Below are positions 7,713 to 62,277 of a stretch of 64,000 nt of DNA, piece after piece. The position numbers and the translations under genes were made by a program. Each line of letters starts with the position of its first letter. Positions within the stretch are counted from its first letter, which is position 1. The stretch lies in NCBI GenBank assembly GCA_026182355.1, contig JAPFBL010000009.1, positions 248,001-312,000 on the forward strand, in the 5' to 3' direction. The notes below the pieces were generated by a model that was not told the origin of the DNA, searched no databases, and saw nothing but the letters and a program-made list of their open reading frames with translations. Origin of the DNA: Hermatobates lingyangjiaoensis. Taxonomy: Eukaryota > Arthropoda > Insecta > Hemiptera > Hermatobatidae.

Positions 7713-8539
7713 TCCTTTTCAGTTCAAAACTGTGGTAAAAGCAATAATACACTAATTATTCCTTACAATATTACTGTAATTCGATATAGTATTTAGTTTG
7801 TGGTTTAATCCTTATACATCTTAGTGCCATTCTTCGAATCGAATGCGATAATCATGAGCTCTTTTTACATTAATTAAGCCAAAGTGATTATTGTAAGATT
7901 TAAAAAGGTTTCTATTTTTTCAGAATAATATCAGAAAAGTGTAAGAAAAAATGTCTGGTTCAACTTTATGAAAAAAAGTAGATTAATAGTAGTATTCGCT
8001 TGGTAGTAATTGCGAAGGGGTGCATTTCTGATACTTCAATATTACCAAAGACAATCAGCTTGATAAACAAACCAAGAACAATATTGGACATTAAGTTTTG
8101 TTTAAGAGTTCAACACCTAGTTTGATTAGTCCAACAATTTGTTCAACAACCAAATATTTTTCTGTATGTCTCTTATGCCTTCCTGAACGGTTTTTTCCGA
8201 TTGCGATGAAACTTAAAGGAATTGTTGGACGCATGCCCGCGTAGGTTTCTGAGTTAATAAGGTGATAATACTGGGAGTTAATGAGTATGTTCATACAACT
8301 ATGTTCCAATATTATAACTGAGTTAATAAAACTGCTCCAATGGGAAATTCAGATTATTGTTTATTTCAAAATTGATAATTATTTCAAATTATTCCTTTAA
8401 TAATTGCATATATTTAAACATTGGTGCGAAATGGTTATCTATATAAATCGAATGTTTTCCTTATCTCGACCACATATACTTAACACTATTTTTCTTTTTT
8501 ATCAAGGTTTGGTCTAACTTCAATAATTCAACACCTTTA

Positions 8540-8579
8540 AGCCGACGTTTCGTCTATATTTGTAGACATCTTCAGGGCT
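8540..8579 (-). ncRNA. hammerhead ribozyme motif, family C, intact core
   Basis: Read on the minus strand: stem I AGCC/GGCU, core CUGAAGA, one extra U, stem II GUCUA/UAGAC with a CAAAUA loop, GAA, self-complementary ACGU forming the minimal helix III, cleavage residue C, then GGCU. Every conserved hammerhead position is present. Short-helix-III hammerheads are known in Penelope-like elements; activity here is inferred. Confidence 0.85.
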
Positions 8580-8753
8580 ACATCAGTACAGGGCTAAATC
8601 AGAATTCAATTACAATAACATGAAACATAATTATATTACATTATTTAATGTTTATGTATATTATGTTTTATACTAAATAATTATGTTTTATTAATTAAAT
8701 AATGCAATATAATTATGTTTCATGTTATTGTAATTAAATTCTATATTGATGTG

Positions 8754-8792
8754 GCCCTGAAGATCTCTACAAATATAAACGAAAGGTCGGCT
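8754..8792 (+). ncRNA. hammerhead motif, family C, decayed
   Basis: Right-arm partner of the copy at 8540. The core CUGAAGA and stem I are kept, but stem II has mutations on both sides and the helix III loop reads AGGU instead of ACGU, so cleavage is unlikely. Confidence 0.65.
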
Positions 8793-9729
8793 TAAAGGTG
8801 TTGAATTATTGAAGCTAGACCAAAGCTCGATAAAAAAGAAAAAATTTGTTCTCTATATAAATAAAAATCCAAATTTTTCTCTATATAGAAATAATTTTGT
8901 TTGCTGTTCAACGCTTTACGACACAATTTAACACCATTTCTGTGTAGTTATGCACAGAATGAAAAACAAATGAAAAAAATTATTGAAATTAAAGCAGTGA
9001 CCTTGATTAGGAATGCTGATCAGTATAGTTTTAATTTATTTACTCTTCCAAGTTGTTTTATTCATGTTTTTTTATCATAATAACACTATCAAACAGTTGG
9101 GCTTCATTATTATAAAATTATATATACAAAACTCAAGTACCTGTCTATTCATGTAACAAAAAGAGTAAATATTAGTAAACAATCTAACCATTATCTTTTT
9201 GTTTTCAGTTGGAAGATATCGATTACTGATGAAAGAATCTGATTCAGAGATAATGAAAAAAAAAACAACAAAGGAAAAAAGAAGGTGTTACTACTGCTTC
9301 AAGATCTGTATGAATCAGCTGCGATTGTGGTATTGAATTATCAACCTGTAATTCCTCCGTGAACTATATGTAAAAAAATACAGTCAGCTATGGAATATGC
9401 TTGCTTCTATGTATAAATATAAAATAATGCAAATATATTCCTTTATTGTACTTTGTAATGTACTCGATTTCGTATGTGATGATTTTGAATAAAATTCTTG
9501 TAAATGCCACTTTATGATTTTATAATGCACTAAAATTTGAAGATCATGACCATTGCAAATATAATAGAGCAAAGAAAGGGGCAAGAATGCAATATTTATT
9601 TGCAATAATTTAAATGAAAATGCCAACAAGAAAACAGTACTGTACAACTTGTTTAATTTGAAGGTGAAAGGACCACCAAAGAATTATGAAGTCCTATATT
9701 AAAAAAAAAAAAAATTGAATTTATCAATA

Positions 9730-9776
9730 AATATATATATATATATATATATATATATATATATATATATATATAT
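9730..9776. repeat. (AT)n microsatellite
   Basis: An uninterrupted AT run bordering the family B foldback on its left. Confidence 0.95.
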
Positions 9777-9853
9777 AACCAATTAAATGAAACGATTCCA
9801 GGAACTAAATAAACTATATTGACACAAAGAACACTCAGAAATGAAACAGAAAC

Positions 9854-9890
9854 TCACTACTATATTACGATGGCCTCGTCATCAGGAAGA
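9854..9890 (-). ncRNA. hammerhead motif, family B, damaged
   Basis: Read minus: CUUC, core CUGAUGA, extra C, a short stem II region GAGGCCAUC, then GUAAUAU. The invariant GAA has become GUA, so it is probably inactive. It pairs with the plus copy at 9931. Confidence 0.65.
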
Positions 9891-9930
9891 GAGAAATGAG
9901 TATTTGTCTACCTGCGGAGTGACTCGTTTC

Positions 9931-9967
9931 TATCTTCCTGATGACGAGGACATCGAAATATAGTAGC
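9931..9967 (+). ncRNA. hammerhead motif, family B
   Basis: CUUC, core CUGAUGA, extra C, GAGGACAUC, GAA, AUAU helix III word, residue A, then GUAG for stem I. Core positions are intact. Stem II is weak (2 bp by my reading) and stem I has one mismatch. It lies about 60 bp upstream of the PLE fragment, in the position of a PLE flank. Confidence 0.7.
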
Positions 9968-10024
9968 GAGTTTCTGTTTCATTTCTGAGTGTTCTTTGTG
10001 TCACTATAGTTTATATATATATAT

Positions 10025-60391: not shown

Positions 60392-60456
60392 TTTTTTCTC
60401 ATTTCTTATTGTGGTTTGGACATTGATTATTATTTAACGTGTTTTTTTGTGAATTC

Positions 60457-60515
60457 TTTATATATATATATATATATATATATATATATATATATATATA
60501 TATATATATATATAA
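60457..60515. repeat. (AT)n microsatellite
   Basis: The longest pure AT run in this part of the window, directly after a family A unit. Confidence 0.95.
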
Positions 60516-60737
60516 ATGAAAGCTTCAAGAAACACGAATGAAAAACATATACTAGGTGTCACATTAAACAGATTTTCTCCAGTCATTTGTTCTTGAAATA
60601 TTTTATTCTAAATATTTGGCTATTATTGTATCTATATCGTTTACCGCTTATTAGTTCTAAAGATTTAGACGTAAACAGCATCTAAAAGGTTATCCAAGGA
60701 TGTTTCTTAAAGACCTAATTTATGATATCACTTTGAT

Positions 60738-60890
60738 TAATTAGTAGCGTCGGTGAAGGTAAGCGGCCCGTTAAATTGATTGATATGTGCTAAAAACGCG
60801 ATCGTTTTCTCTGTGACGTCTTCTGTGCAAAATTGACTTTCGCCATTCGTTACATTTTGACATTCACCCGTCCATGATGCACTTATTATT
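60738..60890. promoter_or_regulatory. complex unique block, possible conserved non-coding element
   Basis: CpG-containing, non-coding and complex: AAGCGGCCCGTTAAATTGAT, ACGCGATCG, CRE-like TGACGTC near 60815, and CCATTCGTTACATTTTGACA. May be regulatory; inferred from texture only. Confidence 0.3.
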
Positions 60891-61115
60891 ACCAAACTTT
60901 TTATTCTAAAAAGGTTTCATTTTCTAACACTTAATTGTATTACTAGAACCAAGAACTCAAAATCAATTAATTGGAATTTAAAAATTATCAATTTCTAAAT
61001 TCATTTGTATAACCATAAATACATGTTCTTCCAATGTTAGCGTGAATTATATTTGTTTTTATTTGAAGGTGAAATCTAAGAAATTCTGATCACTTGAAAT
61101 TAGCGCAGACCCTCA
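60860..61115 (+). repeat. diverged duplicate block, copy 1
   Basis: Shares ordered words with 63655-63835: ACATTTTGACATTCACC, TCTAAATTCATTTGTATAAC, CATAAAT, TTTTATTTGA and CACTTGAAATTAGCGCAGA-like. About 200 bp with gaps. Confidence 0.45.
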
Positions 61116-61237
61116 ACAAAAAAAAAAAAACCAAACCCGTCTACCATTGTTTTAAAAAAAAATCAGCTAGAATAATTAGTCTAATTTCCAAAAGAAATTT
61201 TAATATAGAGGTGTCTGTATATTTTGCAATACAATAT

Positions 61238-61530
61238 CCTAGAGGCCAGGATAGTACAGTGGCTTACGTGCTCGCCTCTGGACTTGTAGATCCGGGGTTC
61301 GATACTCATTCTGACCCTCATTATATTCATAAGGGAGGGGGAAAAATCTAAGCACGTTGTCCCACGTAGAGGATGTTAAACTGTCGGTCCTTAGCCTGTA
61401 TAATGCCAGGTACTAGTTAAAGATCCCTAGTCTGAACACACTTGAGTTGTGTGAGATTTAGGACTTTGAGTACAGAATATTCATTATTTGGTGTCACAAA
61501 GGGCCAATCTTTGGCCTATAGTGTTTCATC
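61238..61530 (+). mobile_element. tRNA-derived SINE copy
   Basis: Head AGGCCAGGATAGTACAGTGG, B-box GGGGTTCGATACTC (near consensus), body GATGTTAAACTGTCGGTCC and tail CACAAAGGGCCAATC, TTTGGCCTATAG. Confidence 0.8.
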
Positions 61531-61539
61531 ATTAATAGA

Positions 61540-62150
61540 AGGGCGCTATAAATTCCACAATAACACCTAATCTATTGTTTATTTTCTTTTGTAATTCGAT
61601 ATACCAAGTAAACTTAACTAATACAAGTATACACTAATGATAATATATGTTAAAAGTAAAATGTGTTACAATTTTTTTAATATATATAAATAATAAGGCT
61701 ATTGTCATTATTTTCTGTTCAGCAGCTGGGAATCAGGCCCGTCAGGGGCTAATATTCAAATAATAAGAAATAGTAATGTTAATTATAATGGGAAACTTAA
61801 TTTAAATTATACTTCACATTCAAGGTGATTCTTGATCAACAAGTTGTAAGTTAATGTTGGTAAACATGATTTTTCCACAATGTGTGGTTTATTAAATGCT
61901 CATTTGTTGATTGCTGTTAAACGCCATAAGCCTGTCTCGAGTTAGTAACTTCTTTTCAAGAGTGCACTATGGTATGTTTTACTTTCATCGTCCTTACTAG
62001 TCCGCCTTCAGTCAAAAAAACCTCTTACTTGAACTCTCTGTGAGAGCTTGATTAGCAGTCTTATGTCATCATACTGAGGGTAAAACGATAATTCAAGCCT
62101 CTAAACAGAACAAGTTTTTTATGAGTCGTCTGTCCTCCACTGCTCTTAAT
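61540..62150. other. AT-rich non-coding stretch
   Basis: No gene or classified repeat is visible between the SINE and the family G ribozyme. Confidence 0.45.
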
Positions 62151-62232
62151 GGTATGTCATGCATTTGCATTATTTCATTTCATTGCATATAATTTTGGGT
62201 TATTTTTGTGACTTTTAATTTTTATTGTGACA

Positions 62233-62277
62233 TTTACCTGATGATGTACACAAAGTGTTCGAAACGAGTCGTTTAAA
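62233..62277 (+). ncRNA. hammerhead ribozyme motif, family G, intact core
   Basis: Core CUGAUGA, extra U, stem II GUACAC/GUGUUC (one mismatch) with AAA loop, GAA, then a helix III of 3 bp (ACG/CGU with AGU loop), unlike the one-pair helix III of other families, residue U, and an A/U stem I. The flank TGGAGACTTGAATTATC and CCCCCATTATGAGT recur at the relic at 22494. Confidence 0.7.

Follow-up and report, generated by a model that had tools for sequence, protein, structure and literature searches.

Paired head-to-head insertions with putative minimal type I hammerheads, probably of Penelope-like origin, in a 64-kb stretch of Hermatobates lingyangjiaoensis DNA

Minimal or small hammerhead variants of Penelope-like elements (PLEs) were reportedly described by Cervera and De la Pena in 2014 and by Lunse, Weinberg and Breaker in 2017. 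In the available parts of two articles, such small variants have a type I core with a missing or diminished stem III, lie in pseudo-long terminal repeats (pLTRs) and are proposed to cleave as dimers (PMC6155905, PMC7761336). The endonuclease (EN)-containing Penelope of Adineta vaga, as far as the accessible part of its description goes, shows head-to-head inverted pLTRs, a tail at one 3' end, target duplications of 8-10 bp and AT-rich targets, and this text mentions the hammerhead 0 times (PMC3846280). In PAc (Poseidon of Anolis carolinensis), both target strands are cleaved and extended, and reverse transcription has two internal starts (PMC11167929). The head-to-head copying of PLEs and the role of their hammerhead were left open in the portions of PMC3846280, PMC7761336 and PMC11167929 at hand. 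Here, we analyzed an AT-rich, eukaryote-like stretch of 64,000 nucleotides from Hermatobates lingyangjiaoensis (contig JAPFBL010000009.1, positions 248,001 to 312,000; hereafter the window). Its typical insertion consists of two copies of the pLTR, the element start region, placed head-to-head with one putative minimal type I hammerhead apiece. Taken as a whole, these are very probably short, apparently non-coding PLE insertions of several families, probably paired by two-strand priming.

There are 39 occurrences of the word CTGANGA on the plus strand of the window and 33 on the minus strand. A strict descriptor, which demanded the core, zero or one extra nucleotide, stem II, GAA, a perfect palindrome beginning with A, H17 and stem I, found 12 motifs on both strands, and five further motifs once one core mismatch was tolerated. 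Markov shuffles gave means of 0.03, 0.05 and 0.08 (orders 1, 3 and 5; 150 shuffles each), and the reversed sequence and seven permuted cores gave none. A relaxed descriptor with a score of at least 8 found 29 motifs against a mean of 0.3 in 12 Markov shuffles; two of these (15074 and 39486) belong to no family and are probably chance matches. The shuffles and permuted cores rule out a chance origin of the motifs, in agreement with an earlier note on this DNA, made from its letters, which had claimed a dense population of hammerheads and proposed such a descriptor search against shuffled controls. The same note proposed a scan with Rfam hammerhead models, and among the Rfam matches over the window there was no hammerhead, even at E<=10. 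Because the Rfam models as run miss all motifs, annotation resting on Rfam may under-count PLE hammerheads. Trained on 15 motifs, a covariance model regained those 15 and 11 more at E<=0.01, and support from folding six motifs in isolation was weak (z -0.35 to -2.31). DNA patterns gave 0 matches each in a viral contig collection, and four prokaryote matches in genome contigs were taken as chance (GC 0.49-0.64, no likeness outside the pattern).

With profile hidden Markov models (HMMs), 64 copies, fragments included, were assigned to five families (A 22, B 10, C 18, D 11 and E 3). Many of them are decayed or truncated, and two further motifs, G (11980) and H (62238), stand alone. This number leaves out a B match at 50080 (E=0.022), a C match at 55131 that is really an A copy (E=0.05), nine D matches that are C copies, and the B half of a chimera at 42294-42395, which was counted once. 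Accordingly, the some sixty hammerheads of the earlier note hold only if decayed and truncated copies are counted, but not with the strict or relaxed descriptor, and its at least nine families reduce to five and the two single motifs. The copies that it singled out at 38933, 45932, 30797 and 47863 are the motifs A 38937(+), B 45936(+), D 30826(-) and E 47868(+). Family B falls into about four subfamilies. A candidate family F (seed 39406) was rejected, as it is a B copy whose CTGAAGA, downstream of the GAA box, is a chance word.

The motifs are real RNA structures, and their three stems covary. In stem II of 20 motifs, 88.4% of cells were paired, against 58.6% when shuffled and 20.7-39.6% when slid; the covariation score was 0.719 against at most 0.118 when slid, with 29 double-sided changes, and family B showed the variants GTCTA/TAGAC, GTCTT/AAGAC, GATGTA/TACATC, GACA/TGTC and GGTTTT/AAAACC. 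For stems I and III of 15 motifs, the paired share was 83.3%, against 65.2% when shuffled and 20.0-40.0% when slid. The independent covariation between families that the earlier note described is thus borne out for stems I to III, but families C and D are related and therefore not fully independent. Its stem I pairs GACU/AGUC, GCC/GGC, UCUC/GAGA and GCUCU/AGAGC were found, whereas CUUC/GAAG is contiguous only at 48239, with one core mismatch. The 12 strict motifs have the type I core CUGANGA...GAA with an A-U pair closing stem III and H at the cut, and we consider with high confidence that, by their sequence, the motifs would be minimal type I hammerheads.

All 12 strict motifs, and 26 of the 29 relaxed ones, have one unpaired extra nucleotide (A, U or C) after A9 and before the first pair of stem II. 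The motifs thereby depart from the insertion-free consensus core and have a variant core. A descriptor forbidding the inserted nucleotide gave only 8 matches, all of family A, because this nucleotide was disallowed. In most family B motifs, the extra nucleotide creates an AUG (A9-U-G10.1) that lies 26 nt upstream of the predicted cut. In PAc, the start codon follows C3 and G8 where stem II begins, and the cut is likewise 26 nt downstream (PMC11167929); by analogy, an inserted core nucleotide may be general among PLEs.

Stem III is a palindrome of 4-6 nt without a loop in the best copies of each family (imperfect in H), and it varies by family (AGAUCU, ACGU, AUAU, AAUU and AGGCCU). Because the palindrome leaves no loop, a proper stem III is impossible in a monomer, and its presence in all 12 strict motifs would imply dimer cleavage. 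Efficient cleavage should require two RNAs, or two copies within one RNA, joined through stem III. The earlier note would have taken failure of all representative RNAs to self-cleave as a refutation; this is a poor one, because a PLE hammerhead that was assayed showed no cleavage without PLE protein (PMC11167929).

The family copies are largely arranged as inverted pairs. Among 47 neighbour pairs at most 400 nt apart, 19 are same-family and head-to-head; the rest are different-family head-to-head (2), same-family tail-to-tail (6), different-family tail-to-tail (9), same-family direct (1) and different-family direct (10). When orientations were shuffled 20,000 times, same-family head-to-head neighbours averaged 6.6 and never exceeded 15. 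Entire palindromes were seen by BLAST, for example at 45500-46027 (97%) and 55026-55202 (99%). The outer ends of the pairs are the 3' ends of the element and lie mostly within TA-rich DNA. We examined 18 of the 19 pairs (named by family letter); D19 (19180..19457; HMM arms 19180-19285(-) and 19367-19457(+)) was left out, its right arm being cut off by a transfer RNA (tRNA)-like short interspersed nuclear element (SINE). Accordingly, the unit is a two-arm retroelement insertion rather than the exceptional crowd of ribozyme families that the earlier note emphasized, and the motif density arises because few PLE families inserted repeatedly into TA-rich DNA. The orientation also bears on animal retrozymes. 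These small repeats are non-autonomous, carry type I hammerheads and spread through circular RNAs, and they would account for short, non-coding copies with such hammerheads and a weak stem III. However, retrozymes occur as tandem repeats of 150-450 bp, whereas the same-family direct arrangement is 1 of 47 here, and the available part of their description does not give a one-arm tail as a retrozyme trait (PMC7229834). We rejected this explanation for its wrong orientation and regard it as highly improbable.

Within pairs, one arm is longer by a 3' tail of about 30-40 nt. Exactly one arm was tailed in 13 of 14 profile-scored pairs (seven of family A, three of D, C1, C60 and E), with tail scores of 54-78 against 10-18 on the partner arm, the random 99% level being 22-30; the remaining pair, C50, scored 18 and 14, both under this level. 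The tail references were taken from tailed arms, so that the scores of C1, C60 and E indicate only the absence of the tail from the partner. Four B pairs showed the same one-tail pattern by reading, and over 17 pairs the tail was on the left in 11 and on the right in 6. Fold-back or miniature inverted-repeat (MITE-like) DNA transposons with chance hammerhead-like words would also appear in TA-rich DNA as inverted repeats, flanked by short target duplications. In contrast to terminal inverted repeats, the outer arm ends differ in those 13 of 14 pairs, the stems covary as RNA, and the core word is required, since permuted cores gave no motif. Such elements were rejected for their unequal outer ends, and we consider them most improbable.

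Exact repeats at the arm ends were found at four pairs, while 1.15% of random 100-nt windows share at least 12 nt and 2.1% share at least 11 nt. Pair A20 (20619..21186; hammerheads 20691(-) and 21082(+); right arm tailed, scores 16 vs 68) has a 19-nt exact duplication, TTTTTATTTATTATGTACA, at 20600-20618 and 21187-21205. Pair A48 (47946..48162; hammerheads 48053(-) and 48085(+); left tailed, 64 vs 18; palindrome 47973-48164, 97%) has a 14-bp repeat, TTAATTTATATATA. Pair A383 (38321..38448; right tailed, 14 vs 56), both arms of which are 5'-truncated within the hammerhead, has a 12-bp duplication, ATATCTTTTAAA, at 38309-38320 and 38449-38460. Pair B1 (8449..8851; hammerheads 8540-8579(-) and 8753-8792(+); left arm tailed by reading; palindrome 8489-8843) has an 11-bp duplication, TCTATATAAAT, at both ends. 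A 13-nt repeat with one mismatch is present at the arm ends of D3 (31168..31369; hammerhead 31259-31292(-); left tailed, 78 vs 12; palindrome 31204-31373), and TA-rich repeats of 10-12 nt were seen at three pairs: 12 nt at B3, of a family B subfamily (39067..39443; left tailed; palindrome 39088-39450), 10 nt at E (47718..47937; hammerheads 47793-47825(-) and 47864-47897(+); left tailed, 64 vs 18; palindrome 47746-47944), and at C50 (50630..50862; hammerheads 50694-50726(-) and 50765-50797(+); palindrome 50691-50800). An assembly artefact was rejected as a general cause of the pairs, as arm identities range from 0.63 to 1.00 over 16 pairs and A48 sits within the end of pair E.

Five pairs lie in (TA)n, namely A389 (38904..39038, ends approximate; hammerhead 38937(+); right tailed, 13 vs 64), A55 (54992..55202; hammerheads 55097(-) and 55131(+), strict descriptor; left tailed, 64 vs 14; arms 1 nt apart within the 99% palindrome above), B2 (38488..38872, ends approximate; hammerheads 38581-38620(-) and 38776-38815(+); left tailed by reading; palindrome 38522-38874), B4 (45498..46058, ends approximate; hammerheads 45556-45595(-) and 45932-45971(+), strict match 45936; right tailed by reading; the 97% palindrome above) and C1 (9779..10014, ends approximate; hammerheads 9857-9889(-) and 9934-9966(+); left tailed, 66 vs 12; palindrome 9806-10017). 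The other five pairs, all with approximate ends, are A10 (10512..10788; HMM arms 10526-10635(-) and 10695-10788(+); left tailed, 68 vs 17), A53 (53682..53905; hammerheads 53796(-) and 53834(+); left tailed, 58 vs 13), C60 (60097..60325; HMM arms 60077-60194(-) and 60207-60298(+); right tailed, 10 vs 78), D1 (30489..30746; hammerheads 30580-30612(-) and 30666-30698(+); left tailed, 54 vs 14) and D2 (30748..30983; hammerhead 30797-30830(-); right tailed, 12 vs 68), whose tailed right arm begins within the hammerhead. No clear target duplication was seen at these five.

Considering the core, the three covarying stems, the inverted pLTR-like pairs and the one-arm 3' tail, together with TA-rich flanks, target duplications at some pairs and one GIY-YIG-like fragment, the insertions are very probably of PLE origin as judged from their sequence. 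The proposal of the earlier note that these are minimal hammerheads of PLEs is therefore well supported; the note did not include the head-to-head pairing, the single tail of each pair, the additional core nucleotide or the target duplications. The traits of EN-containing PLEs found here are head-to-head inverted pLTRs, a 3' tail on one arm and target duplication (A20, A48, A383 and B1). The fragment is a putative GIY-YIG-like PLE endonuclease remnant in an open frame between C1 and A10 (10010..10450, +). Protein searches with it and with the open reading frame (ORF) at 4966-5574 gave nothing at E<=0.001, and Pfam gave nothing above cut-off for nine further window ORFs.

How could two such arms arise? 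In the explanation that we prefer, the PLE endonuclease would make a staggered cut through both target strands, and each freed 3' end would prime reverse transcription from one of two internal starts downstream of the hammerhead, the outer giving a tail and the inner none. Synthesis of each complementary DNA (cDNA) would then proceed through the uncleaved hammerhead as far as the 5' end of the RNA, or halt early, and the two cDNA ends would be joined head-to-head. The one-arm tail here matches both the PLE tail in the accessible part of PMC3846280 and the two internal starts of PAc (PMC11167929). When both arms of eight pairs were placed on independent family members, the untailed arm extended further 5' than the tailed arm in five (about 36-40 nt in D1, about 66-70 in D2, 26 in C1, 23-30 in A383 and 7-11 in A53); the arms of A48 and A55 were equal within 2 nt at the 5' end, and the tailed arm was longer in D3. 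Outside these eight, A389 has an untailed left arm of just about 18 nt that is contained in the tailed arm. In the five pairs, each arm holds sequence absent from its partner, so that neither can be a plain copy of the other unless the centre of the palindrome was trimmed afterwards. Arm divergence from the family was unequal in two of 11 pairs (A10, p=7e-5; C60, p=0.009), and the partner arm was strictly the nearest relative within the window in seven of 16 pairs. Accordingly, the pairs are probably two cDNAs, usually from like RNAs, primed on both strands.

The same PLE insertions could also acquire their second arm by self-priming, in which copying would start from a folded-back cDNA or antisense template, as hypothesized for A. 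vaga Penelope from palindromes at head-to-head junctions in the available part of PMC3846280. This would suit the near-perfectly symmetric arms of A48, A55 and B4, the untailed arms contained in the tailed arms of D3 and A389, and the D3 junction, which by reading has short complementarity usable for fold-back. However, the sequence private to each arm of D1, D2, C1, A383 and A53, as well as the unequal divergence of two pairs, disagrees with it; the constant untailed end resembles a second start site, and the 1-nt centre of A55 leaves too little room for a simple hairpin primer. We consider self-priming unlikely, although clearly less so than the two explanations rejected above, and we prefer two-strand priming to self-copying with moderate confidence. 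Several points weigh against PLE insertion by two-strand priming. Palindrome centres are deletion-prone, and the unequal 5' ends could stem from later trimming. Nine of 11 pairs fit a common arm source, C1 strongly (24 shared and 5 private differences), and this counts against two-strand priming because self-copying predicts it too. In vitro, the PAc reverse transcription start is the same for top and bottom strands (PMC11167929), so that one tail per pair is not explained by that alone. The five pairs with approximate ends listed last above have no target duplication at their arm ends, and those in (TA)n are uninformative on this point. Furthermore, the GIY-YIG fragment has a Pfam match of E=0.0035 and 18 bits, under the 22.6 cut-off, and no PLE reverse transcriptase ORF was found among the window ORFs.

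Two different-family head-to-head neighbours were observed, at 11503-11768 (C/D, the D arm broken) and at 47447-47611 (C/E), with no target duplication seen at either; if these were single insertions, two different templates per event would be needed. A B-to-A chimera at 42294..42395 (-) runs on one strand from a family B 5' part (match 42344-42395) into a family A 3' part (match 42294-42354), the outcome expected if reverse transcription jumped from one RNA template to another. Palindromes in which no hammerhead was recognised lie at 45270-45448, 54381-54647 and 1635-1814, the first two ending in TA repeats, and are possibly 5'-truncated pairs of other families.

With regard to the role of the hammerhead, 56 of the 64 stretches span the CUGANGA box by reading, the chimera and degenerate boxes included. 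The other eight (18918, 30876, 30985, 31307, 38317, 38376, 38899 and 54251) start past it, and none of them begins exactly at the predicted cut; the closest are the right arms of D2 and D3, 3-5 nt before, and the right arm of A383, 1 nt after, with microhomology. The start of three (18918, 30985 and 54251) coincides with the 3' strand of stem II, a position at which reverse transcriptase would be expected to stall on a folded, uncleaved ribozyme. In B3 (39347-39387 (+) and the mirror arm), the CUGANGA box is degenerate in both arms, while the stems, GAA and palindrome are intact. Because both arms share the degenerate box, the B3 RNA was inserted without a working core, in agreement with PAc hammerhead mutants, which still insert (PMC11167929). 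Since the reverse transcription starts lie downstream of the cut, cleaved RNA would be a poor template, and it is likely that the insertion templates were uncleaved. The ribozyme probably trims or otherwise processes transcripts, or limits them, rather than making insertion templates.

Five A arms (both of A48, both of A55 and the right of A389) share a common 5' end at TCAGTT, 15-18 nt upstream of the core, which may be the transcript start; TCAGTT resembles an arthropod-type initiator. A more speculative and improbable idea is that the palindromic stem III pairs same-family transcripts, permits cleavage in the dimer only and brings two templates to the two cut strands, which would give head-to-head, one-tailed insertions. 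In this reading, the palindrome would be comparable to the dimer-linkage site of retroviral genomes; among titles and abstract openings on Penelope hammerheads or head-to-head inversion, none proposes hammerhead dimers as the cause of head-to-head insertion.

Besides the pairs, the window holds unpaired copies. A family C hammerhead (19096..19135, -; strict descriptor, HMM E=9.1e-20) belongs to the unpaired copy 19030-19142, and a family A copy (45137..45247, +; HMM E=2.4e-32), for which no partner arm was found, has its hammerhead at 45154 with GAA changed to UAA. Two family B hammerheads lie at 46121..46160 (-; core CTGGGGA with one mismatch, HMM copy 46062-46171) and at 54692..54731 (+; HMM and relaxed descriptor, copy 54686-54795, (TA)n directly before). 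Motif G (11942..11984, -; stem III AGCT, relaxed score 9) has no relative in the window, and motif H (62234..62274, +; relaxed score 10) has a partial inverted partner near 62060-62121(-) without a motif (nhmmer E=4e-5). Most D copies, such as 30744-30853 (-), carry GTAAGT, which looks like a perfect 5' splice site, a few nucleotides past the predicted cut, and family C has GTGAGT at a similar position. The palindromic pairs at 55029-55199 and 47955-48182 score as plant microRNA precursors, an annotation trap; the Rfam matches at palindromes (MIR831, 70.5 bits; MIR869, 99.1 bits) are below gathering scores and look like inverted-repeat artefacts. A dispersed repeat family was observed at 19440-19660, 22019-22204, 35611-35740, 37988-38126 and 61266-61477, with inverted copies near 23001, 27942 and 34013; the 19440 copy starts like a tRNA-derived SINE. 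The open frame 55605-55913 (+), without a Pfam match at E<=0.1, resembles the C-terminal part of pogo/Tigger transposases, and 63172-63367 is a diverged tandem repeat of period 31/56/90.

In summary, hammerheads in PLEs, pLTRs in head-to-head order and the tail are known from earlier publications, and the insertions described here are, by their sequence features, new families of a known type, namely PLE pLTR pairs with minimal, dimer-type hammerheads. Nineteen same-family pairs of five families in one window provide testable regularities on the insertion mechanism: a tailed and an untailed arm, reciprocal unique sequence, 5' ends crossing the ribozyme and a uniform extra core nucleotide. With regard to this nucleotide, De la Pena and Flores reportedly described in 2001 a viroid hammerhead with an extra core nucleotide, and that of chrysanthemum chlorotic mottle viroid (CChMVd) presumably lies at the same core place as in the motifs here. 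The CChMVd plus-strand hammerhead, in the available part of PMC3705267, has an extra nucleotide in its catalytic core; there it concerns one viroid ribozyme, whereas here it is found in all 12 strict motifs and in five families. Like the small PLE variants in the accessible descriptions, the motifs have a type I core, a diminished stem III, a pLTR location and a proposed dimer cleavage, but they differ from them, as so described, by the palindromic stem III of 4-6 nt and the extra nucleotide after A9. On the one hand, the pairs share inverted pLTRs, a one-end tail, short target duplications and AT-rich targets with the A. vaga Penelope; on the other hand, the available part of that description presents full elements with ORFs and calls the tail optional, whereas here we found mostly bare pLTR pairs with one tail in 13 of 14 scored. 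In PAc, as presumably here, the hammerhead lies just upstream of the internal reverse transcription starts, the tail lies between the two starts, both target strands are used, and the spacing of AUG and cut is the 26 nt of family B; but PAc is coding and lies in tandem repeats, whereas the arms here are short, non-coding and head-to-head (PMC11167929).

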